Assembly (NCBI GenBank): GCA_017517845.1
Contig: JAFWXW010000020.1
Coordinates: 1-49,314, forward strand
Source of the DNA: Paludibacteraceae bacterium
Lineage (GTDB): Bacteria; Bacteroidota; Bacteroidia; Bacteroidales; Paludibacteraceae
Direction: 5' to 3'
DNA length: 49,314 bases
In this document: piece by piece, positions 22,821 to 36,854 of the stretch
Layout: the number at the start of each line of letters is the position of its first letter
Numbering within the stretch: the first letter of the stretch is position 1
The notes under the pieces: model-generated
Told to the model about the DNA's origin: nothing
Databases searched by the model: none
The model's input: the letters and a program-made list of their open reading frames with translations, nothing else
Made by a program: the position numbers and the translations under genes

Positions 22821-22856
22821 AAAACCTAGCCAATTTAGCAATGTTTTTGAGGTTTT
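22821..22856 (-). terminator. Island-type hairpin after the zinc-ribbon gene
   Basis: Outer arms AAAACCT (22821-22827) and AGGTTTT (22850-22856) around a partly paired interior containing GCCAATTTAGC. It is a decayed relative of the AAACCTTGC hairpins at 26423, 27501 and 35833. On the minus strand the stem is followed by GTTATCTTTATAAATT. Confidence 0.5.
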
Positions 22857-22872
22857 AATATAATTCTTCGTA

Positions 22873-23016
22873 TTAGAATTCATCATCTTCTTCAAAATCA
22901 TCATCTGGGATTACACTACAAGGCCATGTTTTTCCACAATCAGGACACTCGTATTCCACCCCATTACAGTAAGCATTTTCACTTCCACAAAATGGGCAAT
23001 CAGTATTTAGAATCAT
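22873..23016 (-). CDS. Tiny six-cysteine zinc-ribbon protein, paralogue 1
   Basis: 47 residues: two CxxC knuckles, CPFC (Cys7, Cys10) and CPDC (Cys24, Cys27), plus Cys17 and Cys33, then an acidic tail PDDDFEEDDEF. This is a rubredoxin/zinc-ribbon layout that should bind one Zn2+ (or Fe). The spacing of all six cysteines is identical in the paralogues at 24709-24864 and 36316-36471, and all three share VIPDD after Cys33. It lies 28 bases after the 61-residue gene. Function unknown; perhaps an adaptor or nucleic-acid-binding subunit. Confidence 0.8.
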   Translation of the reverse strand: MILNTDCPFCGSENAYCNGVEYECPDCGKTWPCSVIPDDDFEEDDEF

Positions 23017-23044
23017 AAGTTAATTTTTAAAGTTAATAACTAAT

Positions 23045-23230
23045 CTATTTCTTTGAAAGAGCTTCTATTGCTTTTCCTACGGTCTTAATAGTGGCGGTTC
23101 CCACTGCAACTGTTGCCAATGCCAATGTTGCAATTGTTCCTTTTGGATTCTTTTCAAATATCTCAGTAATTTTGCTAATTCCAGATGCGGTTCCTGAAAC
23201 TAAATCCATTTTTGATTTTTCTAATTCCAT
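23045..23230 (-). CDS. Small Gly/Ala/Thr-rich protein with one likely membrane segment
   Basis: 61 residues. A charged start MELEKSKMDL, then KGTIATLALATVAVGTATIKTVGKAIEALSKK, a small-residue-rich hydrophobic stretch of about 18 residues with a basic end. This could be a single membrane helix of the glycine-zipper kind. No family recognised. It lies between the 128-residue membrane protein gene and the zinc-ribbon gene at one end of the island. Confidence 0.65.
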   Translation of the reverse strand: MELEKSKMDLVSGTASGISKITEIFEKNPKGTIATLALATVAVGTATIKTVGKAIEALSKK

Positions 23231-23273
23231 AATGACTAAATTTTTAATTAAACTATTCCAAGTGTAAACATCA

Positions 23274-23660
23274 TTATCCTTTCTCCATTATAACAGAACC
23301 ATCTTTATTAAAGGTAATTTTTTTAAATCCTGCCGCAATAGCAAGACCACTCAATAACCCTCCAACTAATATCGCCAATTCTGCTGTAGAAACAACAATA
23401 GTCGCTGTACCAATAGTTGCTGTTAATCCAGCTGCTGTTGCTCCTGCTATTAAAGAAGCTCCTCCTGTAAATGGTGCTGCTATAATTGAACCTAAGGCAA
23501 TAGCTGACACACCTAATAAGGATCCCGCTAAGATCTTTTTCTTCTTTGCTTTTGAGCGCATTTTTTGAGCTAAAGGTCCTTCTACTCTAATTTTATCTAC
23601 ATTTTTGTTTTTTAGAACTTCTTCTAGTTCTTTTTCTGTTGTAACTGTTACTGTTTTCAT
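23274..23660 (-). CDS. Small membrane protein with VTVTT N-domain and Gly/Ala-rich core, paralogue 1
   Basis: 128 residues in three parts: a cytoplasmic-looking start (VTVTTEKELEEVLKNKNVDKIRVEGPLAQKMRSKAKKKK); a hydrophobic Gly/Ala/Thr core of about 70 residues that could form two or three helices; and a short beta-like end (ITFNKDGSVIMEKG). The paralogue at 35866-36255 keeps all three parts (VTVTTKNELDEALKNKNVNRIRVEGSLANEMRAKAKK; IKFNPDGTVSIERN). No family recognised; a pore-forming or membrane-anchoring subunit is one possibility. A conserved AACCTAAAAAATAA leader precedes both ATGs. Confidence 0.75.
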   Translation of the reverse strand: MKTVTVTTEKELEEVLKNKNVDKIRVEGPLAQKMRSKAKKKKILAGSLLGVSAIALGSIIAAPFTGGASLIAGATAAGLTATIGTATIVVSTAELAILVGGLLSGLAIAAGFKKITFNKDGSVIMEKG

Positions 23661-23800
23661 ATTATTATTTTTTAGGGTTATTATAATCTTTATTATATAT
23701 ATTTGCGATACGTAAACAAAATAAGTGCGGAGCTTTTTTATTTACAATTTTAATAATGCAGGTAGACTCACTTTTACACTCATCTACCCACATTACTTTT

Positions 23801-23953
23801 TTAGTAAAAGATTTTCCAATCTTTAGGAAATTTTGGTTCTTTTGTTTTTGGAAATCCACCTCTACCTCTGCCACTAGGCATATCTGGTGATGAAGGAGTT
23901 CTTCTTAAACTCGCAATAAGAGATTTCAATACTTCTAAATTTGGAATATACAT
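23801..23953 (-). CDS. Possible 50-residue small protein
   Basis: ATG at 23953, 18 bases after the UDG-like gene stop, giving a Pro/Gly/Lys/Arg-rich peptide containing MPSGRGRGGFPKTKEPKFPKDW. The overlapping frame at 23665-23874 needs a GTG start and is less likely. Spacing fits an operon member, and the sequence is not low-complexity AT translation, but there is no homologue in the window to support it. Confidence 0.4.
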   Translation of the reverse strand: MYIPNLEVLKSLIASLRRTPSSPDMPSGRGRGGFPKTKEPKFPKDWKIFY

Positions 23954-23971
23954 AAGCAACTTACTTAAAAA

Positions 23972-24685
23972 TTACATACTAAACTTTTTAATCATTTCCA
24001 AAATTACACCGATATGTTCTTTTTCTGGTTTGCCTTGAGGATGCACACTACCAATAAAGTAGGTTTCTCCAATTTTGTAAACATAAACCATATAGTTAGA
24101 ATCGTTCCAAAATTTACTATCTACTATATCAAGATTTATCGTACCAAATTCGTCGCTTCCAGCTAACTTGCATACGAAGTCTGCATACCAATCAGGGCCA
24201 TTGAGTAGAACCACAAATTTAGGTTTAAATACTTCCAACTCTACTTTCAGTATTTCTAAACAGGTTTCAAACTGAACTTCACGCAATTTGTAACTTGGAT
24301 TTCCACCTCCAGTAGGTGAAAGTTTGTATAGGTTTGACCAAACAATATGCTTAAACCAACCTTTCTCGTCTTTTGATAACAGCTGAGCAATAGATTTAAC
24401 CACGCGCCAAAAGGCAGATTTTTTATCATATCGCTCTGTTTCCACCCATTTCACTTGGTCATCGCACATGTATATCTGATTTGGCGAGCCAACAGTAAAC
24501 ATTCCTTCTGTATTTCTGTCACCTTGCGCCTTCCAATCATTTACAGCTCTACCCATAAACATTATACCACCCTCTTGGTAATCCTCACCCCACTGAGCAC
24601 AAAATGTTTCGTACTCAAGGTGTGGGTCTATTAAAGCCAATTGCTTATAGAGCGGAAATAATAGATTTTTTAATTTATTATTCAT
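23972..24685 (-). CDS. Divergent uracil-DNA-glycosylase-superfamily-like protein 1
   Basis: 237 residues. UDG-fold landmarks appear in order: a first strand and loop IMFMGRAVNDW (residues 41-51, in place of the usual GxxP/GEAPG loop), FKHIVWSNLYKLSP (111-124), LEVFKPKFVVLLNGPDWY (150-167), and a late YFIGSVHPQGK with His215, comparable to the HPS motif that contacts DNA. It lacks the classical catalytic loop, so base excision activity is uncertain. It shares the KPxxVxLLxGP block with the gene at 27539-28261. A zinc-ribbon gene lies 23 bases upstream. Confidence 0.6.
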   Translation of the reverse strand: MNNKLKNLLFPLYKQLALIDPHLEYETFCAQWGEDYQEGGIMFMGRAVNDWKAQGDRNTEGMFTVGSPNQIYMCDDQVKWVETERYDKKSAFWRVVKSIAQLLSKDEKGWFKHIVWSNLYKLSPTGGGNPSYKLREVQFETCLEILKVELEVFKPKFVVLLNGPDWYADFVCKLAGSDEFGTINLDIVDSKFWNDSNYMVYVYKIGETYFIGSVHPQGKPEKEHIGVILEMIKKFSM

Positions 24686-24708
24686 TGTAACAAATCTTTT
24701 AATTAAAA

Positions 24709-24864
24709 TTAATCATCAATATCATCCCAATCGTCTGCTTCATAAGCATCATCTGGAATTACATCACAATCCCAGGTTGCATCACAATCTGGACATTCAT
24801 AAATAGAACCATCGCAATAAGCGCTATCACCGCCACAATATGGGCAATCTACATTAAAACTCAT
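24709..24864 (-). CDS. Tiny six-cysteine zinc-ribbon protein, paralogue 2
   Basis: 51 residues: CPYCGG, Cys17, CPDC, Cys33, then VIPDDAYEADDWDDIDD. Spacing of the cysteines (7, 10, 17, 24, 27, 33) is the same as in the other two copies, and it is nearly identical over residues 1-40 to the copy at 36316. It is 23 bases upstream of a UDG-like gene and is probably the first gene of a six-gene transcript running down to 22873. Confidence 0.85.
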   Translation of the reverse strand: MSFNVDCPYCGGDSAYCDGSIYECPDCDATWDCDVIPDDAYEADDWDDIDD

Positions 24865-24984
24865 AGTATAAAAAATTTAAGTTAATAATTAAACATTTTA
24901 GCAATTTCTATAATAACGTTATTTCTTTATTGCTTCTGCAAAGTTGAGGATTTGTTTTTGCATGGCAATTTTTTTTAAGCCTCT

Positions 24985-25006
24985 AAAATCCCCGTACGGG
25001 GATTTT
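24985..25006. repeat. Perfect 22-base palindrome
   Basis: AAAATCCCCG then TA then CGGGGATTTT. It lies between the terminator of the gene at 25079 and the zinc-ribbon gene, and could be a second terminator or an operator for the operon starting at 24864. Confidence 0.7.
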
Positions 25007-25033
25007 TACCCATATCATTAGATTTCCCATAAA

Positions 25034-25062
25034 AAATCCCAATGGTTCTACCATCGGGATTT
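25034..25062 (-). terminator. Terminator of the 429-residue UDG-like gene
   Basis: Twelve-base arms with one mismatch (AAATCCCAATGG/CCATCGGGATTT), followed on the minus strand by a T-run and 17 bases past the stop codon. Confidence 0.75.
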
Positions 25063-25078
25063 ATATGATTTAACACCA

Positions 25079-26368
25079 TTAGGATTTATTTAGTTCTTGT
25101 TTTATCTCTTTCATATAGTAATCTAAAATAATCTTTTTTATATAATCTTTAATCTTTAATTGTTCTAAATTTTCTTCTTTAAAACCATTAAACTTATTAT
25201 CTTTCTCAAGTTTTTTTATATACTTTATAATTTTAGTAGAAATTTTATTCCCTCTATTTCTAGAGTATTCATTTCTCCTACTTCTTTGCCAATCATGAAG
25301 TGACGCACATTCTATCCCCAGCGCTTTTATAAAATTAAATTCATTCATTTTATTAGCATCAAGAGTTTCATCCAATAATTTAAATAATTCAATTCTCACA
25401 CCATCATTCATGTAAGTTGCGGAATATTTAGGAATATTATTATTAATAATCCTTATTACTTCATCTATATCTAATGTAATATCTTTCTCTAGTTCTAATA
25501 CATTCTTTAACGCCATTCTCAAACCTACCTCTATTTCCTTCTTGTGCCAATAGTTTTCCAAAAATCCTACAAATTTCTTATCTAAAGCATACGAATAAAG
25601 CACTTCATCAACCCTATCTATATTTTTCCCAGTAACAGAAAACGTCAAATCCTTAATAGCATTTATTTTATCTAAAAGTATTTTATAGGGATTACCTATT
25701 AACTTCAGATTAGATTCCCCTAACTTACTTTCTATCTCCTTTAATATATTTTTTGGAGTGTCTTTTGACTGTAATTTGTAAGTAAAACGATAAATAGGCA
25801 CTTGCCAATTTTCATAAGAATCTACAAATTCTAATCCATTAATTTCATTACCTTTAGCACACAAACAATCTTTTACAGCTCTGCTAATAACATAAATAAC
25901 CTCTGGTTTCAAAAGTTCAAGCAATTCCTTAAAAGCCGCCAAATTATCTTTAAACTTCTTTTTATTATCTTTATATTTCAGAGTATCATAACTACCATGC
26001 ATGTTCTGTAGAAAATTTGTAAAAGCAATAGAATCCCAAAACTTTCTTTTATCATTTTCTGACACAGACTCATTGGTTCTAAGGAAGTACTTCGTAATGT
26101 AAGAATACGAATAATGCGAATCACATTCCTCCAAATAGCTTTCCACCTCTATTTCATTACTATTTGACAAAGAATAATATTCTTCCCTCCCTTTATACAC
26201 AGGACACTCTCTATCATATTTAGCAGTATTCTTAAAACAATCTTCTCTAAACTTACATTCAGTTCTACACACATGAAAAACGCCAAGGATTAGCGTTCTA
26301 TAACCCTTATAACCTTTCTCATACTTCTCTTTATCATACCTTGGTTTAAAGAAAATATTTGATTTCAT
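25079..26368 (-). CDS. Divergent UDG-superfamily-like protein 3 with N-terminal cysteine cluster and long extension
   Basis: 429 residues. The first 200 resemble the two shorter UDG-like proteins: GYRTLILGVFHVC (strand and loop, 22-34), FWDSIAFTNFLQN (110-122), LLELLKPEVIYVISRAV (150-166). Cys34, Cys38, Cys44 and Cys55 (CRTEC..DC..EC) could bind zinc or an iron-sulfur cluster, as family 4/5 UDGs do. The last 220 residues are charged and helical with no recognised domain. AT and Lys/Asn/Ile content is high even for this genome. Activity unproven. Confidence 0.5.
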   Translation of the reverse strand: MKSNIFFKPRYDKEKYEKGYKGYRTLILGVFHVCRTECKFREDCFKNTAKYDRECPVYKGREEYYSLSNSNEIEVESYLEECDSHYSYSYITKYFLRTNESVSENDKRKFWDSIAFTNFLQNMHGSYDTLKYKDNKKKFKDNLAAFKELLELLKPEVIYVISRAVKDCLCAKGNEINGLEFVDSYENWQVPIYRFTYKLQSKDTPKNILKEIESKLGESNLKLIGNPYKILLDKINAIKDLTFSVTGKNIDRVDEVLYSYALDKKFVGFLENYWHKKEIEVGLRMALKNVLELEKDITLDIDEVIRIINNNIPKYSATYMNDGVRIELFKLLDETLDANKMNEFNFIKALGIECASLHDWQRSRRNEYSRNRGNKISTKIIKYIKKLEKDNKFNGFKEENLEQLKIKDYIKKIILDYYMKEIKQELNKS

Positions 26369-26422
26369 ATTTTTGAGATTTTAATTTTTAACACAACATT
26401 AAATTGAATTATAAAAATAACG

Positions 26423-26447
26423 AAACCTTGCCAAAATAGCAAGGTTT
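26423..26447 (-). terminator. Island-type hairpin terminator (AAACCTTGC)
   Basis: Nine-base arms around CAAAATA, nine bases past the stop of the LPD3-like gene. On the minus strand it is followed by CGTTATTTTTATAATT, similar to the tail at 22821. Confidence 0.7.
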
Positions 26448-26456
26448 TCCCAATTC

Positions 26457-27239
26457 TTAATGCCAAAATATGACTCTGTTGTAAAATTCTTCATCTTTTT
26501 TTGATTCTTCGAGCAAAAATTTCCCCTTATCGTATGACTTTTCAACATTTTGTAGTAAATTTGCAGTGTTAATAGTCAGACCTCCTAGCGAGTTAGGATC
26601 ATTAGCCGTCAAGATAGAACTGTTTGATTCGTCAAACAGTTCTATTTTTATTACCTCAAATGTATAAGGTTTGTTTGGAGTTGTATCACGGAATTCATAT
26701 ATAGTCGTTTTTACACTATAGATTTTACTAAAAAAAGATATAGCCCCATAAAACCTATGAATCAAAACATTCTCATTAATAGGATTCTCAACAGAGCGCA
26801 CACTATCAACTTTAGTATAATCTGCATGTATCTCTACTTCAATACTATTTTCTATAATATCTGGCAGAACTTTCAACACAGATAAGTGAATAGGTAAATT
26901 TTCACTCTTATTAATTGCTTTTGCACTTAAGTATTTCTTTATTGATTTTTTAGTAATCTTATATTTAAACTTATTCAGGGTGCATTCATGAGAAGTATAA
27001 ATCCCTACAAGATTTTTCTCTGCCCATATTTTAGACTCTCCCAAAGGGTCGTCACTATTAAAATCATGCGGCTCAACTTCTACTATATCCACATAACTTT
27101 CATTTAAATAAGGCATTACAATACCCTTATTTATTTCCGCTAATTTTTGAATTAAATCAAATTCTTCTAGAGGTTTTGAAGAATTATAACCTACAAAAGG
27201 TTCAGAAGCAACTGAGTTGCTGAAGATTTGTTTTTTCAT
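26457..27239 (-). CDS. LPD3-like (polyvalent-protein-associated domain) protein
   Basis: 260 residues. Residues about 92-205 (FKYKITKKSIKKYLSAKA..HLSVLKVLPDIIENSIEVEIHAD..NVLIHRFYGAISFFSKIYSVKTTIYEF..YTFEVIKIEL) follow the pattern I know from LPD3-type domains, found in phage, ICE and plasmid polyvalent proteins and related to BECR-fold nucleases. This is recognition by eye, so moderate. It is not part of a polyvalent giant here. The coding DNA at 26614-26645 includes a hairpin identical in style to a terminator, and 121 bases of the gene are repeated at 27370-27489. Confidence 0.5.
   Translation of the reverse strand: MKKQIFSNSVASEPFVGYNSSKPLEEFDLIQKLAEINKGIVMPYLNESYVDIVEVEPHDFNSDDPLGESKIWAEKNLVGIYTSHECTLNKFKYKITKKSIKKYLSAKAINKSENLPIHLSVLKVLPDIIENSIEVEIHADYTKVDSVRSVENPINENVLIHRFYGAISFFSKIYSVKTTIYEFRDTTPNKPYTFEVIKIELFDESNSSILTANDPNSLGGLTINTANLLQNVEKSYDKGKFLLEESKKDEEFYNRVIFWH
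26614..26645. repeat. UUCG-type hairpin inside the LPD3-like coding sequence
   Basis: Fourteen-base perfect arms ATAGAACTGTTTGA around TTCG, followed on the plus strand by TTTTATTACC. It encodes IELFDESNSSIL on the minus strand. Related copies are at 11515-11546 and 27441-27471. Confidence 0.75.
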
Positions 27240-27272
27240 TTTATAACAATTTAAAATTAAAAATTACGCAAC

Positions 27273-27292
27273 AGTGCACACGTGTATGCACT
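27273..27292. promoter_or_regulatory. Near-perfect palindrome in the LPD3-like gene leader
   Basis: AGTGCA and TGCACT flank CACGTGTA, with one mismatch over 20 bases. It sits between the promoter at 27332-27339 and the ATG at 27239, a good place for a repressor. Confidence 0.55.
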
Positions 27293-27331
27293 ATTACAAT
27301 TAACAAAATTTCTTCAGCTTTATTCTCAGTA

Positions 27332-27339
27332 CAAAGATA
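27332..27339 (-). promoter_or_regulatory. -7 box TATCTTTG for the LPD3-like gene
   Basis: Exact TAnnTTTG; a TTG lies 22 bases further upstream. The leader is about 85 bases. Confidence 0.5.
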
Positions 27340-27369
27340 CTATTTTTTTACAGGGTTTATACAATTTCT

Positions 27370-27489
27370 CAACATTTTGTAGTAAATTTGCAGTTCTAAT
27401 TATCAGACCTCCATAGGAGTTAGGATGATTAGACGTCAAGATAGAACTGTTTGATAATCAAACAGTTCTATTTTTATTACCTCAAATGT
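27370..27489 (-). pseudogene. Duplicated, decayed fragment of the LPD3-like gene
   Basis: Aligns with 26543-26663 over the whole length with about 13 differences and one deleted base. The frame is broken (stops within what was VIKIEL..TINTANLLQN). The hairpin at 27441-27471 is preserved with a changed loop (TAA instead of TTCG). The copy sits directly upstream of the intact gene and downstream of the UDG-like gene. Confidence 0.8.
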
Positions 27490-27500
27490 TTATAAACAAC

Positions 27501-27527
27501 AAACCTTTGCCGATATGGCAAAGGTTT
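27501..27527 (-). terminator. Island-type hairpin terminator (AAACCTTTGCC)
   Basis: Perfect 11-base arms around GATAT, 11 bases past the stop of the UDG-like gene. The apex TTGCCGATATGGCAA is close to the fic palindrome at 20192. Confidence 0.75.
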
Positions 27528-27538
27528 AAATATAATAG

Positions 27539-28261
27539 TTAGTGAATATTAGTTCTTATTAACTCTAATATTTTTTGCTTATATATATCAACATTATGAT
27601 TTATGATTAAGTATATAGGATTATAACACCTATATGTTACTGGCAATTTCTTATTAGTAAACTTTATTTGAGCAAATTCTCTACAGGTAAATGGGTCCAC
27701 TTTTCCAAAATCAAAATCCCCTAGAAAAGTTTCTATATTCTTATCATAATTAGGGCCTGTTAAGAGAATAAGCATATCAGGTCTGAGAATATTAATTTCT
27801 TCTATTAATATATTAAAATTTTTCAATATCAAATTATTAATATTCTTATCACCATCGGTTTCTCCTCTTTTTTCTATTTTTACAAGATTATTAATAATTA
27901 TCTGCGTATCAATAGGTACATCAGCTTGTATATTATTAGGAAAATCGAAAAATAGTGAATTATCTCCTCTCTTTATATTTACAAATAAGTCATATAACTT
28001 CATCAGATTCTCAGGGGTCTGATCCTCATAATTTTCTAATTCATTTCCCCAACTATTCGTTTTTTTTCCAAGAATCATTATTTTTATAGACGAATTAAAA
28101 TATGCATCAGTGGGCACCACTAAAAATGGCAATTCACATTCCGTCTGTTTTAGAATGTTTTCCTTACATTTATACCATTGATTTTTATACAACTCTAATA
28201 ACTTTTTAGCCATTTCATTCTGTGGAAATTTATGGCTTATAATTTCATCTATTTTAAACAT
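27539..28261 (-). CDS. Divergent UDG-superfamily-like protein 2
   Basis: 240 residues. IKIMILGKKTNSWG (59-72) matches the first strand and loop of the gene at 23972 (IMFMGRAVNDW). INNLVKIEKRG (123-133) and ILRPDMLILLTGPNYD (158-173) match its WSNLYKL and FKPKFVVLLNGPDWY blocks. The late YRCYNPIYLIIN has an NP where UDGs have HP. The two proteins are clearly of one family, though less than 25 percent alike by eye. Catalytic residues cannot be assigned, so this could be a nucleic-acid sensor rather than a glycosylase. Confidence 0.55.
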   Translation of the reverse strand: MFKIDEIISHKFPQNEMAKKLLELYKNQWYKCKENILKQTECELPFLVVPTDAYFNSSIKIMILGKKTNSWGNELENYEDQTPENLMKLYDLFVNIKRGDNSLFFDFPNNIQADVPIDTQIIINNLVKIEKRGETDGDKNINNLILKNFNILIEEINILRPDMLILLTGPNYDKNIETFLGDFDFGKVDPFTCREFAQIKFTNKKLPVTYRCYNPIYLIINHNVDIYKQKILELIRTNIH

Positions 28262-28610
28262 AAATTTAATTTAATTTTATTTATTCTATTAATATTGTTG
28301 TATAAATTACACCCACGCTAAAGTGTAAAATCATTTTAGTAGAAAATCATAAGATTCATAAATAAGTTATCTTAGTCTCTTATATTTCCTTATATTATTT
28401 CTATTTCAACTAAAGAATCACAATCTTATTGTAAAAATTCTTCTATTATTTGTATTTTATTTAATCATAAGCATAATAATTTCTTTTAAATTTTACACAT
28501 AGTTAATTTCACGCAAAGGTAATTATTTCTCTGTACTCTTCTCTCGTTTGATTAAATAATTCAATTATTTCTCCTAATAAATTATGAAATTTCAATTCAC
28601 AAAAGACATA
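28262..28610. other. AT-rich intergenic region, possible regulatory sites
   Basis: No coding frame of note. TTACAC (28307-28312) and GTGTAA (28323-28328) form an operator-like inverted repeat 46 bases from the UDG-like ATG. A TACCTTTG box (minus strand, 28514-28521) is the only clear promoter-like string; it would give a leader of about 250 bases. Confidence 0.45.
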
Positions 28611-30731
28611 TTATTTCTTATATATTTTTTTGTATGATTTTATTGGTTTCGGCCCTATAGTTTTTATTTTGCTTATTATCTCAAGCAATTCTGCACGATT
28701 CTGATTTGTTTTCATTTCAGGGAACTCATTATCCAAAATATTCAATCTGCTTTGGATAGACTTTTTTTGCTCAAAAGAGACACTCATGTTTCCTATATTT
28801 TTTGCATCGTCTAATAGTTTTGAAATCTCTGTTTTGTAGTAATATATTCTTGAATTCTTAATATTTTCTTGTTTAGTCAACATTATATCTTCATATTTAT
28901 CATCCAAAAGTTGTATCCCTTGTCCAATAAATGGTTTAAGTTTGCTGAAATTGTACATATTTAGAGTCTTCAAGAAGGATTTATCAATAATTTTATCTTG
29001 TGAACATAATTTATTTATATCCTCTTTTGCTACATTGAAGTACTTTTCTGCAAATATTAATAGTAATTTCTTGTATTCTTCTTCATCTTCATTTAACCAT
29101 TCTAATTTTGACATTTCCTCTTGACGATAATTCAGTTTTCCTAACTCTACAAAGAAAGAAAGTATATTATAACTTCCAGTATAATTTAATTTTAAATCTT
29201 CTTGTCTCAACCATACACGTTTATAATGAAATGCAGGCAATTGAAGTATATAAAAATTATGATATTTTTTTTCTAATTCAAGTAATTTATCTAAGGCCCT
29301 CTTATCTGCCATAATCTCCTCTTTATCTTTTGATATTGTTCGTGAAACTACATATCCTTTGTATTCATTCCAATTATCTTTATTCTCTGGATATGAGAAT
29401 GCTATAAAAATTCTCCCTCCTTTTTTCAAATATTCTTCAAAAAAAGGTAATCTTTTAAAGGTTGCAGATTTTATCCAAGGACTAATTATCCACATTTCAT
29501 CTTTTGTGTTATCAAAAAGATGTTTAAGTTCTATTTCAAATTCAATAGAGTTAAAACGGCGTTTTGAAACAAGTAATTCTCTCTTTATTTCTTCTGCTTT
29601 ATTGTAGTTATTTTCTGCAATTGCCTTATCTATCTCATCTTGTTTTTCTATAAGCTCTTGTTCTACAACAAGTTGAACTGTATTTTTCTGTTCATCCGTT
29701 GGTAATATTGGAGATTCATCAGAAGTCGTCTCAGAAATTAATTTCTCAAGAATATTTTTTTTCTGATCTTCTAATTTACTTAATGCAGTTGATAATTCTT
29801 CAATTATTTTTCCGCTCTTTTCATCATAAACCAAAACACGATAGTCATTAGTTTTGAAATTTTCCAATAACACAACCCAAACCTTCCCTATAAATCCTTC
29901 AGGACATCCAGCAGGTTTACATGATTGCAAAATGTAGTTTCTACTAGGATAATGAATTTCTGGAGCTTGCAATTCTGCTATCGGTTTTACATCTTCAATA
30001 TTATTAGGAAGCTTCTCCTTAATGAATGTTGACTGCTTTTCACTAACTAAGCTACTAAAAATAGATTTAGCATTTTCTCTAACATCAGCAATAGCATCTA
30101 TATATAATTCAAAAGAACGAGTATATGTTGAAAATTTTACGCCATTTGCTACATATCGCTTACCTAAATCTGTAAGACAATAAACACTCTCATCTCCTTC
30201 TATCATTTGATCTTTCCTAAGATCATTTATAGCATTTAACAAGATGCGCTTCTCTGCAGGATCACATTCAATATCAAAACCTAGTACCTTCCCTATCTTT
30301 GATAAGGACATTTGTTCAATCTCAAGAAGTTTACATATCACCTCATCAAAAAGTGTAAATTTAATTGGTTGAGAACATATTCCCTGAAATCTAACAACAG
30401 TATAGTGCCAATCAAAATTTGTAAAACCAACTATTCGCTCAACTAATTTCTTTTTCTTACTAGCCGCTTCTATTAATTTTATTTCTAAAGGGAGATTATC
30501 AAGCGTTGATAGAAACTTCTTTGCTTCTTTTTTAGGGTTTAGTTCATCAAGTTTACTAGATGTTTCAATTAAATAAGACTCTATGTTATTCTTAATGAAC
30601 TCTACGATCTCTTCTGAGACGTTCTCTGCAGGATCTTCTTCGCACTTATAACCATTTCTATTAAGAAATTCAGCAATAGTGGAAATACCAATATTTAATT
30701 CTCGTGAAATTTTAGATAGTCTTTTACTCAT
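28611..30731 (-). CDS. PLD-type nuclease-like protein with IF2_N-like N-terminal domain
   Basis: 706 residues. Residues 1-52 (RLSKISRELNIGISTIAEFLNRNGYKCEEDPAENVSEEIVEFI) resemble the IF-2 N-terminal domain and are clearly similar to the start of the helicase. Residues about 125-195 look like a winged helix. A coiled-coil linker precedes a PLD-like domain (about 405-560) with WIISPWIKSATFKRL, AFHYKRVWL (HxK near 500) and NYTGSYNILSF (GSxN near 515). Only one HKD-like half is evident and the Asp seven residues after His is Arg, so activity may need a dimer or be altered. It starts two bases after the helicase stop. Confidence 0.7.
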   Translation of the reverse strand: MSKRLSKISRELNIGISTIAEFLNRNGYKCEEDPAENVSEEIVEFIKNNIESYLIETSSKLDELNPKKEAKKFLSTLDNLPLEIKLIEAASKKKKLVERIVGFTNFDWHYTVVRFQGICSQPIKFTLFDEVICKLLEIEQMSLSKIGKVLGFDIECDPAEKRILLNAINDLRKDQMIEGDESVYCLTDLGKRYVANGVKFSTYTRSFELYIDAIADVRENAKSIFSSLVSEKQSTFIKEKLPNNIEDVKPIAELQAPEIHYPSRNYILQSCKPAGCPEGFIGKVWVVLLENFKTNDYRVLVYDEKSGKIIEELSTALSKLEDQKKNILEKLISETTSDESPILPTDEQKNTVQLVVEQELIEKQDEIDKAIAENNYNKAEEIKRELLVSKRRFNSIEFEIELKHLFDNTKDEMWIISPWIKSATFKRLPFFEEYLKKGGRIFIAFSYPENKDNWNEYKGYVVSRTISKDKEEIMADKRALDKLLELEKKYHNFYILQLPAFHYKRVWLRQEDLKLNYTGSYNILSFFVELGKLNYRQEEMSKLEWLNEDEEEYKKLLLIFAEKYFNVAKEDINKLCSQDKIIDKSFLKTLNMYNFSKLKPFIGQGIQLLDDKYEDIMLTKQENIKNSRIYYYKTEISKLLDDAKNIGNMSVSFEQKKSIQSRLNILDNEFPEMKTNQNRAELLEIISKIKTIGPKPIKSYKKIYKK

Positions 30732-30733
30732 AA

Positions 30734-33700
30734 TTAAAGATTTTTAAGTTGAGCGATGTCTACTCTATGCATTTTTTGAATTGCTTCCGCATACTCAGGT
30801 TTATTTGAGAAATGTTTTTCATTCCCAATAACGATAAGAAGTCTTTTTGCACGAGAGAAACCGACATTAACACGTGGGCACTCTCGAGCAAATCCTAATG
30901 CATAAGGATACTTTTCATTTTTAATTATTTTTCCATCAGCCAATTTTTGACAATTACTGCGAACTGTTGATATAATTATGATATTTCTTTCCATACCTTG
31001 AAAACGGTCAACTGTATTTATTCGGAAAGGAATTTGAAATTCATTATTATACTTATGCAATTCAAAATTACGCCATTCATTTTTTGAAAAATTAGGATAA
31101 ATGGAATTACGAATAGCTATCATTTGTGACATATAGTATGTTATAATTCCTATTTCCTTATCCTCCTCCTTTTTACAACTATCAAAATACTCTTTAAAAC
31201 CTTCTGATTGTTTCAATGCATGTAGAACAATTTTGATAGCATCTACCTCACCTTTATTTTGGTATGATTTATTTTTATGTGGATCTTCTTCTGGAGTATC
31301 AACATTTACCCATATTGCATGATCTTCATGGCTTATAAATGGTGCTAAATTCATTCCATGCCACCTACTTGCTTTATTCGTGAAATCACGAATATTCATT
31401 TCATTTTTTATTCCACAAATTAAACCATTCTCCAACTCCTCTTGATCCTGATAAAATTGTGATATACATTTCATAATTTGCTCATGCATACGGAATTGTG
31501 TATCTAAACTTGCAACAACTGGACGCGGTGCATTAACAAATAGTTTTTCAAATTGAGATGTCTTATAATCTATTTTCGTCCAATCTTCTACAAGTTTCTT
31601 TGCTCCTACAGCATCAAGAGCCTCAGTAAATTCATTTTCATCTATCATTGGTGGCAACTGTTTATGATCTCCAATCACAACAACTCGTTTACCTAATGTT
31701 AATGGTAAAATTAGTTCTGGTGGAGTTGCCTTACTTGCTTCATCCACAATAACCAAGTCAAAAATTGGTTCTCTTTGATTTTCTTTATCCTTCAAAAAGA
31801 TTGATTGATAAGTTTCGCTAAAATTTCGACTACCACATTCACTACATGTTGCTGCAAACACATTTACTTGTTTCAAATATTCAGTTGCAAAGGCAGTCTT
31901 TATTAATGAACATCCTTTTTCGAGGCCTTCTGCCCATTTTTTTACTATAGGCGCAAAACGGTTATCACTATTATCACTATTAGCAACCACATTATTTATC
32001 CAGTGAGACACAGCATTATCTGAGTTATTTCGTTCTTCTTCGGTACCTATTTTTGCAACATGCCATTCATTTATTCTTTTATCTGAATACATTTTGCCTT
32101 CATCCTCAAACTTATCAATATTACCTATACGTATTGGCCTTACAAGTTTCTTTCCTTTCAAACGTTCAAGAGCATTATCGACTGCCAAATTAGTTTGTGA
32201 TGTTATCAAAATCTTAGCAACAGGATTATTTAACAAAGTTTGCCATATAATTTCAGCAATAACGGTTGTTTTACCTGTTCCTGGCGGTCCTTGAATAATT
32301 GCTATATCAGGGGAAATAAGTGCTTTGGCGACTGCCTCTAATTGCTTAGATTGATTTTTCAACATTGGCTCATTTAAGTTATTAACAATCCTCATCTTTT
32401 CAATTTCTAAGTCTGTTTGAGGAAGTCTAGCCATATTAGGATCAAATAAGAAATTAGAAAGGTTTGCATTTGCAGGATACCCGACTTGTTCTGGTTCTGT
32501 TACTTTCTTCATAGCCTTGATCATTCGAGAAATATTTGTTAATTCACCAGGGAATATTGGTTTAATAAACCCTTCCTGAATTTCTAAAATATCTTTCCTG
32601 TCTAATAATTCTTCAAATTTAGATTCTCCTAACCTAGAAGTTTCTAAACGAAATTTTAACTTTTCTCTTTCTTTACGAATAAGTTTACCAATAGATATAC
32701 CACCTTTAAATATAGCATCATCTCCATCCTTTTCCACAGTTTCTCTATATTTCTTATAATCCTCTCTTGTTAAATAAATAAACAATGCTTGTTTAACATT
32801 ACGAGCAACCTCTTTCTCTTTATCAGCTTCTAATTTAACATTTTTATTAAATTGGAACAAAGTAAAACCATCAACATTATCAAAAAACAATTCAATGGCA
32901 CCTCCTATTTCATCACATATCTTCTGAAGATTTTCAACAAATAGATCACGTTCTTCCTCGGTATTATATGTAAAATCAAACAATGTACGAGAATAATTCT
33001 TAATAGAATCATAAGTAATTCTATCATAATTTCTCTTTCTAAGTTCTTTTTGTATTCTTTGTATAATTTCACAACGTTCTATTACGAGATTCTCCTTTAA
33101 TTTTAAATAATAAACAGGACTAAATTTTTTATCTTCAATAGAAACACCTTTAATTTCCTGTATTTCTGATATGAGTTTTCTATATTCATCTGCATCAGAA
33201 GCATTAATAATTAATTCAGAAGTATCTAACGAAAAAGTACGACTACCTTCATTATCAACTGACGATTTATATTCTCTAAGGGTGTCTATATCCACCATAG
33301 GTGTTGGCAGTTCAAAAATGTATCTTGTTGGTAGAATTCTATATGAGTCATCAGACAACGTAGAATGTATTGTTTTAAGTATTTCTTTTGCTTTTTCGAT
33401 TCTTATATCATCTGCACAATAACGTCCATTTTCTATATAAAGACCATCTATAGGTTGTAAAGCTTTTTTATTATAAGAACTAAATGAAAAAACATTTTTT
33501 ACATGATTCAAACCTAATTTAGAGAAAGCATCATGTCGAATAAAAGAATTCACACTTATTGCAACTTGCCTTCCATCTTCAGAAATCTCTACCTTTACTC
33601 TATCTAATGACAACCCCAAATTAACAATCTCATCTTTAAGAGCATGCAAATCTATTCGTTCATTATTTGACATATCAAACGAGACTTTTAAACGCATTGT

Positions 33701-34924
33701 GGAATCTTTTTTTACTATTATTGAAGCACCATGTCTACGTTCTGCTACCTTTATTACATGGGGAAGTTCTTTCTCTAAACAATTAATTTTCCCATCTCTT
33801 CCTATAGACATAGCAATCTTGTATTCTGAATCCATATATTGACAAATATCATCATATACATCAGCTATATTATCGTCACTTGCTTGATTAAATTTAATTT
33901 CACCAGATATAGAATAAATTGGTTGAGAAATAAATTCGTAGAAATACTCAAAAGCAAGAGATTGAAGTTTCTCTCTTTCTGTTTGACTTAATTCTCGAAA
34001 AGAAGAAAATTCTATAAAACCATTCTCATCATTTACCCCAAAATCTTCTAGTTCATCAGAGAAAAATTCTTTTAAATCTCTCTCAAACGCTTTACTCATT
34101 TCCTTCTCATTTATGTATATATCTATATACGAAGGACGTGAATCTCCAATATAATCTTCTTGATATGGTCTACTAATTTTCTTTATTTTCCAAATTTGTT
34201 CTTTTTCTCTTACAAGTTTTTTTAGTGCCGTAACATAACTTTTCCAGATTGATTTATCTTTTTCCTTATTTAGTTCTATTTTAGGAAGATTAAGAGCTTC
34301 TACTTTTTTATATAATTGTTGAAAATCTTGTGCACTAGAACCTTCTATCTGTGGGTCTGACACAAAATGTATGTTACACTCAGCTTCATACACTTCACTT
34401 TCAGGAACCTTAATAAACGGAACCTCCTTTGATTTAGAAACAAAATAAGAATATAAGGTTGTAAACTCATCCACCTTAGATTGACATAATGAAACTCTAA
34501 AAACAATCGCTTTTTCATCATTTAATTGTATAAATATTGAATGATGTGAACGATTTTTCTTTACATCTGATTTTGCTTTTTGAAAATAACACCTCCTAGA
34601 ACCATTTGTAAGAATAGATTTAAGTTCCATAAAACGCATTGTATTGTTGGCATTTTTATCCCACTTATCAGCTATATCTTCATGAAATCGTAAATATACA
34701 TCAAACTTAGAAAGTTTAATATTTTCAAAACTCACTGGATGAAAACCCTTATTCTGATTTTGATCTTTACCAAATTCTTTTTGTAGAATTTCGTATATAT
34801 CATCAGAAATGCGAGCATTAGGATTTCCTTCTTCTACCTCAATTCCTTTCTTTTGTAAGAAATCAACGATAGTAGGAAGACCTACATTTAAATCACGCAT
34901 TATTTTATTTAACCTTACTGGCAT
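30734..34924 (-). CDS. Large SF1 helicase (UPF1/DNA2-like) with IF2_N-like N-terminal domain
   Basis: 1396 residues. Residues 1-50 ([32 protein letters not shown]) are IF2_N-like and match the PLD partner. Residues about 60-850 are unrecognised and may hold target-recognition modules. The C-terminal helicase core is intact: Walker [10 protein letters not shown] (near 877), [18 protein letters not shown] (near 1058), [22 protein letters not shown] (near 1143), [20 protein letters not shown] (near 1305) and [16 protein letters not shown] (near 1352). It should move on DNA or RNA using ATP. It is coupled to the PLD gene (two-base gap) and follows the sigma gene by 135 bases. Confidence 0.85.
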
Positions 34925-35059
34925 ATTTTTTAGAATTTAATTTACAAACAATACAAAATTAAGTATTTTTTACAAATTTTCAAAGAACTAAACAGAGTAT
35001 TTACCAACTTTCACAACTCAATACTTTTATAGATACTAAACAATCATTATAATAGTCAG

Positions 35060-35671
35060 CTATGCCCTTTGTCGATAACTACTAATATTGAATTGCATAC
35101 ACATTTTTTCTATGTTAGAGTTACTTTTAAGTTTATTGCGGACCCTAGAGATTTGGGTACGACAAGCTCCAGAACTTAAATTAAGTTCATCGCAAATATT
35201 TTGATTCGTATAATTGTTTAATAAAAGTTCTATAATGCGTTTCTCCGTTGGAGACATCGAAGATATTAATGAAGAGATAGAGTTTAAATTCTCTTTTGAT
35301 TCTATATTATAATCAGAACTATAACTCTCAGAGGCCTTTATTTGCAAATAAGTACCAGAAATAGGCCTTTCATCCTCATTATATAAAGTATAAGAATCTA
35401 AGGAAATAAAATTTTCCCTTTTCTTATTAGCTTCAATATAATCTAGAGTAGTATTTTTTGCTATTGCCTTAAACCAATTATCATGAGAAATTTCCTTATT
35501 ATATCTCACTTGATTTAACCATATTTTTTCTAGCACTTGACTTACTATGTCTTCAATATCTTGTTCTTGAGCAGTAAAGTTAGATATAGCAAATGTTTTC
35601 TTTATTGTAGGAAATAAAGTATTAGAAATAACTTTGTTTAAGTTTTTGGTAGTTGTTGTGAATCTGTTCAT
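35060..35671 (-). CDS. Sigma-70 family (ECF-like) RNA polymerase sigma factor
   Basis: 203 residues from the ATG at 35671, which has AAGAAGAAAA upstream; the ATG at 35701 would add ten residues. Sigma region 2 is seen in DIEDIVSQVLEKIWLN..ISHDNWFKAIAKNTTLDYIEANKKRE; region 4 in MSPTEKRIIELLLNNYTNQNICDELNLSSGACRTQISRVRNKLKS, an HTH. No anti-sigma factor is recognised next to it. It is upstream of the helicase on the same strand and may control the island. Two-domain ECF factors are common in Bacteroidetes, usually with FecR; here the context is different. Confidence 0.82.
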   Translation of the reverse strand: MNRFTTTTKNLNKVISNTLFPTIKKTFAISNFTAQEQDIEDIVSQVLEKIWLNQVRYNKEISHDNWFKAIAKNTTLDYIEANKKRENFISLDSYTLYNEDERPISGTYLQIKASESYSSDYNIESKENLNSISSLISSMSPTEKRIIELLLNNYTNQNICDELNLSSGACRTQISRVRNKLKSNSNIEKMCMQFNISSYRQRA

Positions 35672-35726
35672 ATTATTTTCTTCTTTTAATAGATTAAACA
35701 TACGATGGGGCTAATATTTAAATAAT

Positions 35727-35745
35727 GGTCAAACTTAGTTTAACC
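35727..35745 (-). promoter_or_regulatory. Sigma gene promoter overlapping an imperfect palindrome
   Basis: -7 TAAGTTTG (35730-35737, minus strand) lies within GGTCAAACTTAGTTTAACC, a palindrome with one mismatched pair. This suggests repression or autoregulation of the sigma gene. Confidence 0.5.
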
Positions 35746-35832
35746 ACTTGGTTCTGTCCAGTATTCATATAGCAAATTCTATGCCAAAAACATATAACAA
35801 TAAAAAAATATTTATTTTTCAGTAAAATTACA

Positions 35833-35856
35833 AAACCTTGCCAAATAGCAAGGTTT
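35833..35856 (-). terminator. Island-type hairpin terminator (AAACCTTGC)
   Basis: Nine-base arms around CAAATA, ten bases past the stop of the 129-residue membrane protein gene. Confidence 0.7.
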
Positions 35857-35865
35857 GTTAACTAC

Positions 35866-36255
35866 CTAATTCCTTTCTATAGAAACAGTACCATCAGGGT
35901 TAAATTTTATTTTATATCCATGTTTCATTGCTAAAGTAGCTAAACCTAGACCACCACCTATCAACATAGCTAATTCTGTTGCTGTCATAGTAACCGTTCC
36001 TACTGTTAAAGCAGTGGCTGTAAGTCCCGCCGCACCTGCTATCAAAGATGTTCCAGCCGTAAAAGGAACTGCAATAAGAGCGCCAGCAGTAATTAACGAA
36101 CCTGCTATAAGTGAACCTCTTCTTATTATTTTCTGCTTTTTTGCTTTTGCTCTCATCTCATTTGCAAGTGATCCTTCTACTCTAATTCTATTTACATTTT
36201 TATTTTTTAGAGCTTCATCTAATTCATTTTTTGTGGTAACAGTTATTTGTGTCAT
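35866..36255 (-). CDS. Small membrane protein with VTVTT N-domain and Gly/Ala-rich core, paralogue 2
   Basis: 129 residues; the same three-part plan as the gene at 23274-23660, with N-terminal VTVTTKNELDEALKNKNVNRIRVEGSLANEMRAKAKK, a hydrophobic Gly/Ala/Thr core and C-terminal YKIKFNPDGTVSIERN. Roughly half the residues of the N-domain are identical between the two. It follows a zinc-ribbon gene by 60 bases in a three-gene operon starting at 36854. Function unknown. Confidence 0.75.
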   Translation of the reverse strand: MTQITVTTKNELDEALKNKNVNRIRVEGSLANEMRAKAKKQKIIRRGSLIAGSLITAGALIAVPFTAGTSLIAGAAGLTATALTVGTVTMTATELAMLIGGGLGLATLAMKHGYKIKFNPDGTVSIERN

Positions 36256-36315
36256 ATCTATTTATTTTTTAGGTTAACGTCTAAGTTTTTAAGTATTTCT
36301 TTTAGTATTTACAAA

Positions 36316-36471
36316 TTAATAATCATCATCCAAATAATCTTCATCAGCATAGGCATCATCTGGAATTACATCACAATCCCAAGTTGTATCACAATCAGGA
36401 CATTCATAAACAGAACCATCGCAATAAGCGCTATCACCGCCACAATATGGGCAATCTACATTGAAACTCAT
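36316..36471 (-). CDS. Tiny six-cysteine zinc-ribbon protein, paralogue 3
   Basis: 51 residues: CPYCGG, Cys17, CPDC, Cys33, then VIPDDAYADEDYLDDDY. Residues 1-40 differ from the copy at 24709 in only a few positions, whereas the acidic tail has diverged, suggesting a conserved zinc fold and a tail selected mainly for charge. It lies between the 107- and 129-residue membrane protein genes. Confidence 0.85.
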   Translation of the reverse strand: MSFNVDCPYCGGDSAYCDGSVYECPDCDTTWDCDVIPDDAYADEDYLDDDY

Positions 36472-36477
36472 AATATA

Positions 36478-36515
36478 TTTTTTTAATTAGTAATTATTTT
36501 TTTAATTAGTAATTA
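36478..36515. repeat. Exact tandem duplication of a 19-base AT-rich unit
   Basis: The unit TTTTTTTAATTAGTAATTA occurs twice without a gap, just upstream of the zinc-ribbon ATG. Confidence 0.85.
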
Positions 36516-36530
36516 TTTTTTATCACTTTT

Positions 36531-36854
36531 CTATGATTTACTCCTATTACGTTTACGAGATTTATAAATTGCTACACCTGCACCAATTGCACCTGCACCT
36601 GCTAGTGCCCATCCCACTGGACCTAATAATCCTAGTATTGCAGAACCTGCGGCCATACCACCACCGCCAGCAGCTAATGATCCACCGCCTACCCATGCTA
36701 AAAAGGTAGAGGTTTCAGCAGCACCAGCTAAAGTTGCACCTGGACCTGCACTAAAGATTGACCATAAGATTGCCTTACCACCTACAGCTGTTGCTGTACC
36801 CAAAGCACTAGCGCCCGCGCTAGTACCTACAATTACTTTATCAGATTTTTTCAT
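36531..36854 (-). CDS. Small Gly/Ala-rich membrane protein (glycine-zipper-like)
   Basis: 107 residues, more than half Gly, Ala and Ser, with three or four weakly hydrophobic stretches (GTSAGASALGTATAVGGKAIL, GSLAAGGGGMAAGSAILG, LAGAGAIGAGVAIYK) and a basic tail KSRKRNRSKS. The composition resembles glycine-zipper and bacteriocin-like membrane peptides. No family recognised. It is the first gene of the island, divergent from lepA. No TAnnTTTG box is visible upstream. Confidence 0.7.
   Translation of the reverse strand: MKKSDKVIVGTSAGASALGTATAVGGKAILWSIFSAGPGATLAGAAETSTFLAWVGGGSLAAGGGGMAAGSAILGLLGPVGWALAGAGAIGAGVAIYKSRKRNRSKS

Follow-up and report, generated by a model that had tools for sequence, protein, structure and literature searches.

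A Mokosh type I-like helicase and PLD-type protein pair in a Paludibacteraceae genome, with a near-copy of the start of the same genome's infB at the front of the helicase

The stretch of DNA analyzed here (the window) is a contig of 49,314 nucleotides (C19) from the draft genome of a Paludibacteraceae bacterium (1.68 Mb, 81% complete). Its position in Bacteroidales is borne out by a small SRP RNA of the Bacteroidales kind and by a Paludibacteraceae record that holds a near relative of the gene pair described below (locus L032). Between lepA and the DUF1232 and yccF genes it carries an island of 14 minus-strand genes in a row at positions 22873-36854, all present as an earlier note, made from the letters alone, had listed them (Table 1). 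These open reading frames are regarded as genes and not as chance frames, because they include gene duplications, share a common orientation and form long open frames. We describe herein a helicase gene and a PLD-type gene at the core of this island, which resemble Mokosh type I, and a near-copy of the start of infB with which the helicase begins.

Table 1. Features of the island, with their coordinates in the window
Feature	Position	Strand	Basis
MkoA-like UPF1-type SF1 helicase, 1396 residues, N-terminal IF2-N domain	30734..34924	-	Pfam, PADLOC, motifs
infB-like stretch, 6 nt before ATG to about codon 59 of helicase	34749..34930	-	DNA match to own infB
MkoB-like protein, 706 residues, IF2-N-like N-terminus, one HxK...GSxN PLD motif	28611..30731	-	PADLOC, alignment
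IF2-N-like stretch of PLD protein, more diverged	30558..30731	-	infB matches, alignment; no Pfam hit
ECF-like sigma-70 factor	35060..35701	-	Pfam, TIGR02937
gly129, small membrane protein, PHROG 25580	35866..36255	-	Profile searches
gly128, paralogue of gly129	23274..23660	-	Sequence comparison
gly107, Gly/Ala-rich protein, PDC-M09A match	36531..36854	-	Profile, E 8.6e-17
gly61, small hydrophobic protein	23045..23230	-	Open reading frame
Zinc ribbon copy 1, acidic tail	36316..36471	-	Repeat comparison, Pfam sub-threshold
Zinc ribbon copy 2	24709..24864	-	Repeat comparison, Pfam sub-threshold
Zinc ribbon copy 3	22873..23016	-	Repeat comparison, Pfam sub-threshold
UDG-superfamily-like protein, 240 residues (udg240), relative in L048	27539..28261	-	PF03167 sub-threshold
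UDG-superfamily-like protein, 237 residues (udg237)	23972..24685	-	PF03167 sub-threshold
udg429, Cys-containing, relatives of 199-330 residues, putative UDG fold	25079..26368	-	No UDG hit
LPD3-domain protein	26457..27239	-	Pfam, E 3.6e-8
Partial duplicate, 3' part of LPD3 gene	27366..27492	-	Repeat families D3, D7
Terminator-like hairpin after zinc ribbon copy 3	22823..22845	-	Imperfect stem, by eye; not in scan
Terminator-like hairpin after LPD3 gene	26423..26447	-	Sequence reading and scan
Terminator-like hairpin after gly129	35833..35856	-	Sequence reading and scan
Terminator-like hairpin after udg240	27500..27528	-	Sequence reading and scan
Hairpin and T-run after udg429	25036..25060	-	By eye; not in scan
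Further open reading frame, doubtful	23665..23874		

The helicase gives AAA_11 and AAA_12 hits in Pfam and contains the SF1 motifs. Its residues 691-1385 match the PADLOC profile of MkoA (PDLC03920) with an E value of 5.6e-111, the first 690 residues lying outside this best match. The PLD gene follows downstream at a distance of 2 bp, and its product matches the MkoB profile (PDLC03922) at residues 161-453 (E 8e-8). The single HxK...GSxN motif of this protein reads HYK...GSYN, and the HxK and GSxN residues are kept in all five aligned rows of the family (the PLD gene of locus L033 is split over two frames in the record, and its first piece alone was aligned). No PLD hit was found for the protein in Pfam. 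A probable winged helix was read from its sequence, and the relative in locus L074 gives a weak winged-helix hit (E 2.3e-4). A search of solved structures with the PLD protein, udg237, udg240 and the profiles A5 and A3 returned nothing beyond presumed chance hits.

A kinase domain is a feature of Mokosh type I. Among the Pfam hits (E up to 1) of the helicase and the PLD protein in the window, neither a kinase domain nor a NERD domain (PF08378) was found. The NERD domain PF08378 is listed for Mokosh type I, and a PLD-like domain for types I and II (PMC10952713). MkoA has been placed in the UPF1 group of SF1 helicases (PMC10925250), and Mokosh has been described, with reference to earlier work, as degrading viral transcripts (PMC11291487). 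Because the NERD and kinase domains are not among these hits, though they may not be required in all members, the assignment is kept at Mokosh type I-like. By its profile matches, the core of the island is such a helicase and PLD pair, which does not support the earlier note's view that no named system has this set. The labels of SF1 helicase, PLD-like protein, ECF-like sigma factor (TIGR02937, E 8.1e-16) and LPD3-like protein given in that note all stood, the PLD-like label by its motif and its PADLOC match though not by a Pfam PLD hit.

A search with the helicase returned the infB of the same genome at 73% identity over 74 residues; infB genes of other genomes reached up to 64%. This infB is confirmed by TIGR00487 and lies directly downstream of nusA (TIGR01953). 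Over 182 nucleotides, starting 6 nucleotides before the ATG, helicase codons 1-59 are 87% identical to it, and no continuing match to infB was found on either side of this stretch. In the protein, 51 of 58 residues are identical to the IF2 of the same genome; of the remaining IF2 sequences in the loci under comparison, the nearest agrees at 36 of 58. The start of the genome's own IF2 shares only 30-32 of 58 residues with those of six congeners, and the donor was therefore this lineage or a close unsampled one. The Pfam IF2_N domain is matched about equally by the helicase (E 0.015) and by infB itself (E 0.017), both below the curated cut-off. By its protein and DNA matches to infB, the helicase N-terminus is homologous to IF2 N1.

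The two copies differ at 24 nucleotides in 59 codons, 5 at first, 1 at second and 18 at third codon positions, and dN and dS were 0.066 and 0.635, respectively, as an average over both branches by the single method NG86. With three quarters of the differences (18/24) at third positions and dN far below dS, the IF2 domain has been kept by selection. The same figures bear on the suggestion that the infB start was captured to aid expression through a good start region and good early codons, the encoded peptide being of no importance. The copy does start 6 nucleotides before the ATG and at the exact N-terminus, as such a capture would have it. However, no promoter or leader was copied, as seen from the lack of a match further upstream, 58 codons exceed the need, the differences concentrate at third positions, and the PLD protein has a similar domain. 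We regard expression capture as improbable.

The N-terminus of the PLD protein is also IF2-like, though more diverged: most of its matches to infB are of 35-50% identity over 28-50 residues, and some reach 46-49% over 41 residues. This feature is common to the PLD proteins of the window and of loci L032, L033 and L074, and is absent in that of L053. No IF2 domain heads the helicases of L032, L033 and L053; in L032 and L033 the protein begins near the position of residue 58 in the helicase of the window. The IF2-like N-terminus of the PLD protein is the older of the two. An "IF-2 domain-containing" label on a related helicase from an Aulosira plasmid was dropped, as it had no Pfam backing.

Outside the window the pair is rare. 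At E 1e-15, a profile of the PLD family picked up three of the 358 genomes examined from the same taxonomic family (the genome itself, G441 and G503), and five Bacteroidales pair loci were found in all: the window, L032 (most likely the pair locus of G503), L033, L053 (from G099) and L074 (from G441). The PADLOC scan covered the window, L032, L053 and L074. It gave MkoA at 1.2e-107 and MkoB at 2e-7 in L032, MkoA at 3.2e-112 and MkoB at 3.8e-5 in L053, and in L074 MkoA at 2.6e-107 for the part of the helicase present and MkoB at 3.2e-10. None of the other island genes was found in L032, L033 or L053 at E 1e-3, and at E 0.05 the sole trace was a match to the sigma factor in L033 (26.9 bits, E 0.035), read as chance.

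These three loci have companions of their own. A protein of 208-211 residues (50-61% mutual identity) follows the pair in L032, L033 and L053, and is followed in turn by an AAA ATPase of 528-533 residues (59%) in L032 and L053, the contig of L033 ending there. The ATPase of L032 is IetA-like (E 2.7e-27). A protein of 140-150 residues (48%) precedes the pair in L032 and L053. The conserved neighborhood, at L032:5555-14291, L053:9039-17925 and L033:5963-12919, looks like a fuller Mokosh-type operon, and none of these partners is present in the window. In L074, from another genus, a gly129-type gene (43% identity) lies 569 bp after the pair, on a contig of 4.9 kb. The same pair thus occurs in at least two kinds of neighborhood, and it has a gly129-type neighbor in two genera.

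At E 1e-40, five of the 72,556 plasmid records searched also carry a relative of the helicase, and in all five the gene immediately downstream lies on the same strand. In Aulosira and Cyanobacterium this gene is PLDc_2, the Aulosira one matching MkoB at 1.7e-34; in Nostoc and Hymenobacter it is DarT-type by annotation, and in Aliarcobacter it gave nothing informative. The Nostoc helicase lies inside a BREX locus and the Aliarcobacter one beside Qat. In the Nostoc plasmid (L091), the helicase relative stands between the BREX genes pglX and pglZ together with an annotated DarT-type ADP-ribosyltransferase and an ADP-ribosylglycohydrolase. Such surroundings matter for the view that the pair has no part in defense and serves the cell in RNA or DNA repair, as a housekeeping helicase and nuclease. 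Helicases of the UPF1 type are common and also serve host functions, and a weak MkoB match would suit this view. It is nonetheless very doubtful, given a PLD partner in only 3/358 genomes of the family and plasmid relatives in other phyla that sit beside BREX, Qat or toxin-antitoxin and hsdR genes.

Among the remaining island genes, gly129 and gly128 are 58% identical (51% by tblastn), and these two and the zinc ribbons, three copies of one gene, place paralogues at both ends of the island. The gly129 family was detected by profile search in six of 300 genomes of the family, and a wider profile at E 1e-5 found it in two of 393 genomes of the order (the genome itself counted in both). Six gly129 loci are known outside the window, L078 being counted despite a score of 24 bits. 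One has the pair (L074), and two have a udg429-type gene, 0.9 kb (L076) and 3.0 kb (L075) from the gly129-type gene; L077, L078 and L088 have neither in the stretch fetched. In L077 and L088 the gly129-type genes look, from the genes around them, to lie beside nucleotidyltransferase or HEPN-type toxin-antitoxin genes, although the putative toxin-antitoxin gene of L077 had no NCBIfam hit.

The protein gly107 matches positions 141-242 of the 330 in the profile of the candidate-defense family PDC-M09A, has a longer relative of 469 residues in L047, and was found in two of 295 genomes at E 0.001, counting its own. The Pfam hits of the zinc ribbons to the YjdM ribbon are all below threshold (E 0.0047, 0.0028 and 0.0009), copy 3 being matched better by zf-Mss51 (E 0.00023), and a marginal match to a Burkholderia YjdM was found. 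A small zinc ribbon with an acidic tail also occurs in an uncultured phage of 462 kb (LR756500; L079:1158-1361), with 58% identity over 31 residues (E 7e-4). The 3' part of the LPD3 gene has left a partial duplicate upstream of the intact gene, which matches positions 26539-26666 at 88% and 97% in two blocks and is a trace of local duplication.

Three UDG-like proteins had been proposed in the earlier note. Two of them, udg240 (E 0.0039) and udg237 (E 0.00023), have PF03167 hits below the gathering score, and the relative of udg240 in L048 passes the threshold narrowly (24.8 against 24.3 bits). The label is unproven for the third, udg429, which has no UDG hit in Pfam and whose profile matches the other two with a probability of 2.9% (E 0.015). 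A hit of the udg429 profile to the exosome protein LRP1 among solved structures (E 0.0021) was taken as chance. At E 0.001, udg237 occurs in two of 295 genomes and udg429 in five of 101, own genome included. Near udg429-type genes, a family of 219-239 residues recurs (L075:11875-12564, L076:8418-9077 and L051:11356-12075), with identities of 45% between L075 and L076 and 29% between L051 and L075. Two different open reading frames of L075 open with almost identical residues, M(N/S)VTVFE(D/N)PCP(Q/K)PGQ. At L051:8187-14710, a udg429-like gene is accompanied by a WYL-like regulator (by reading), lipoproteins, a DUF1232-like open reading frame (E 0.002) and a dynamin-type GTPase (Dynamin_N, E 2.5e-20; LeoA, E 6.6e-10), and from this gene content the stretch is a candidate for another defense cluster.

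Transcription of the island was considered as well. A 21-bp motif with three matches in the window was first found upstream of three genes, and its 18-bp form, with up to two mismatches, has three matches in the 81%-complete genome, all in the island. Its interpretation as a promoter of a sigma regulon was rejected, as it is the right arm of terminators of the form AACCTTGC...GGCAAGGTT, which follow gly129, LPD3 and zinc ribbon copy 3. A terminator scan recovered two of these three; it gave seven terminator-like sites against 5.0 expected, a total that is not significant. A promoter scan was uninformative (68 sites against 84 expected), and no shared promoter motif was found upstream of the island genes, other promoter types not having been searched systematically. 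Given these terminators and the two further hairpins after udg240 and udg429, the island is probably divided into several transcription units.

The earlier note had envisaged one sigma-controlled system, in which, as set out here, the UDG-like proteins would recognize modified DNA, the helicase and PLD protein degrade it, and the small membrane proteins would halt the cell. Anti-phage effectors do occur in the UDG superfamily (Brig1, PMC11078745; Brig3, PMC13160076), and gly129-type genes do accompany the pair (L074) or udg429-type genes (L075 and L076). Yet no second locus with all three sets was found (the 4.9-kb contig of L074 limits this test), the pair lacks them in L032, L033 and L053, the terminators are separate, the supposed shared motif is a terminator arm, and a search of 101 genomes at E 1e-12 recovered the sigma factor from its own genome alone. 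A single 14-gene system is accordingly quite improbable. The co-occurrence that the note had proposed to check in other genomes is real for the gly129-type genes in L074, L075 and L076 and fails in L032, L033 and L053. Small genes and nuclease core in separate loci, which the note had named as a refutation of its reading, are seen in three of the five pair loci and not in the window and L074. The other island genes are best described as an accessory pool whose members are rare and shuffled but do, in part, genuinely travel together, and a repeated link to the pair exists for the gly129 type only.

The base composition and position of the island were compared with its surroundings. The G+C content is 26-34% in 2-kb windows at 23-36 kb and 34-40% a few kilobases to either side; low values are not unique to the island (28.5% at 6-8 kb), and third-position G+C (0.16-0.32 in the island, 0.21-0.39 elsewhere) gives no clear separation. 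The lepA gene (37066-38853) is 99% identical in protein and 90% in DNA to that of congener G009, the next gene being only 76% identical in protein. A lepA match was found in 13 congeners, 11 of which were fetched (in G002 and G012 the lepA region lies outside the fetched set). The sequence upstream of lepA was readable in 10 of them, with lengths between 849 bp and 16.9 kb, two of these stretches not exceeding about 1 kb; the L066 contig ends at lepA. In these 10 no island gene was found upstream of lepA at E 1e-3, nor were DUF1232 and yccF, and several congeners share another block there that the window lacks. At lepA, its right edge, the island is therefore at a variable site, and the part of the earlier note's reading that is supported is that of a patch of genes acting on nucleic acid, probably in defense. 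The congeners did not, however, show a clean empty site.

A phage or plasmid origin of the island was dropped after searches of phage, plasmid and viral_contigs records with several of its proteins. At E 1e-5, 50,697 phage records held no relative of udg237, gly128 or the PLD protein; plasmid records held none of gly129, and viral_contigs, where the scan reaches close relatives only, none of the zinc ribbon, udg237, gly129, sigma factor and LPD3 protein. With the udg429 profile, one distant partial match (L089) was obtained.

We consider that the pair may be a Mokosh variant tethered by its IF2-like domains to nascent transcripts or initiating ribosomes, a reading to which we give a probability of about 0.5. 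The helicase and PLD nuclease would form one complex, which would find and cut foreign RNA or RNA-DNA structures. The IF2-like domains would dock this complex on NusA-RNA polymerase and initiating ribosomes, from where it could survey incoming transcripts as they are made, and the gly129-type protein might serve as a membrane effector or anchor. In Escherichia coli, Domain I of IF2 is necessary and sufficient for co-purification of NusA and has been crosslinked to it, and the contact is predicted to extend over N1 and residues 57-90 (PMC12297416). A fuller version, in which IF2 N1 on both subunits docks a Mokosh-type complex that inspects transcripts at birth or is triggered by phage disturbing IF2 or NusA, with gly129 as third partner, is put forward only tentatively.

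Several observations weigh against the docking model. The helicase copy ends at about residue 58 and lacks the predicted contact region at residues 57-90. Moreover, the N-terminus of IF2 and the C-terminus of NusA are not conserved between species (PMC12297416); for Bacteroidota, docking is extrapolated from E. coli. A near-copy of infB is seen on one helicase only (the helicase start of L074 is off its contig), the estimate of selection comes from 59 codons, and the sequence may have come from a close donor outside the sampled genomes, or the two copies may have exchanged sequence later. In Pfam, the N-terminus of the PLD protein gives no IF2_N hit, and the MkoB match is weak and does not cover the PLD motif. 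As for the third partner, gly129 was detected in two of the five pair loci and not in the other three, and the genome-level overlap of the pair and gly129 has a P of 0.001 with the window's own genome and 0.03 without it, the latter being fairer for a window that was selected by its content. Finally, the anti-phage function of the pair is putative.

The main alternative to docking is that the IF2 domain acts as bait, an integrated decoy through which phage proteins that attack or bind IF2 or NusA would bind the helicase instead and switch it on. A decoy must stay host-like, and the helicase N-terminus is indeed far closer to the IF2 of its own genome (51/58) than to remote ones (at most 36/58). 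On the other hand, the diverged domain on the PLD protein is a poor copy of host IF2. A decoy role is unlikely in our estimation, and docking is the reading carried forward here.

Compared with known systems, the pair is closest to Mokosh type I in having a UPF1-type helicase followed by a PLD-type protein, both matched by PADLOC profiles. It differs in the IF2-N-like domains on both subunits, in its gly129-type neighbor, in the lack of a NERD domain among the hits found and in its weak MkoB match. An IF2 domain on a Mokosh protein is not described in the titles and abstract starts among the matches listed from the open-licence literature searched, which is no proof of its absence from print, and the literature covered, in excerpt, offered no explanation of how Mokosh-type pairs choose foreign over host RNA. 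CoCoNuT systems provide a parallel: CnuH-family helicases typically have a downstream winged helix-turn-helix nuclease and are predicted to target RNA, those of types II and III-A carrying an SmpB-like N-terminal domain (PMC11090510). The CnuH-CnuE arrangement of types II and III, with a PLD effector in III-C, shares with the window a UPF1-like helicase, a translation-related N-terminal domain and a downstream nuclease partner (PMC11090510), the winged helix of the latter being only probable in the window. Unlike these, the window helicase has an IF2-N and not an SmpB-like domain, the PLD protein has one HxK motif and not two PLD domains, and no McrB/McrC-type coiled-coil partner was hit by Pfam in the 10 island proteins scanned. 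Brig1 and Brig3 are likewise UDG-superfamily proteins in a defense setting, a likeness that is tentative, the window proteins giving sub-threshold UDG hits at best. With host IF2 the helicase shares 51 of 58 residues of N1, here fused to a helicase in place of the rest of IF2. While the Mokosh-type core is known, a helicase start that is a near-copy of the genome's own infB start, kept under selection, is new. Such a host-like domain names a concrete candidate for the docking partner, NusA or the 30 S subunit, and it would be an instance, in bacteria, of an immune protein that incorporates part of a housekeeping protein of its host.

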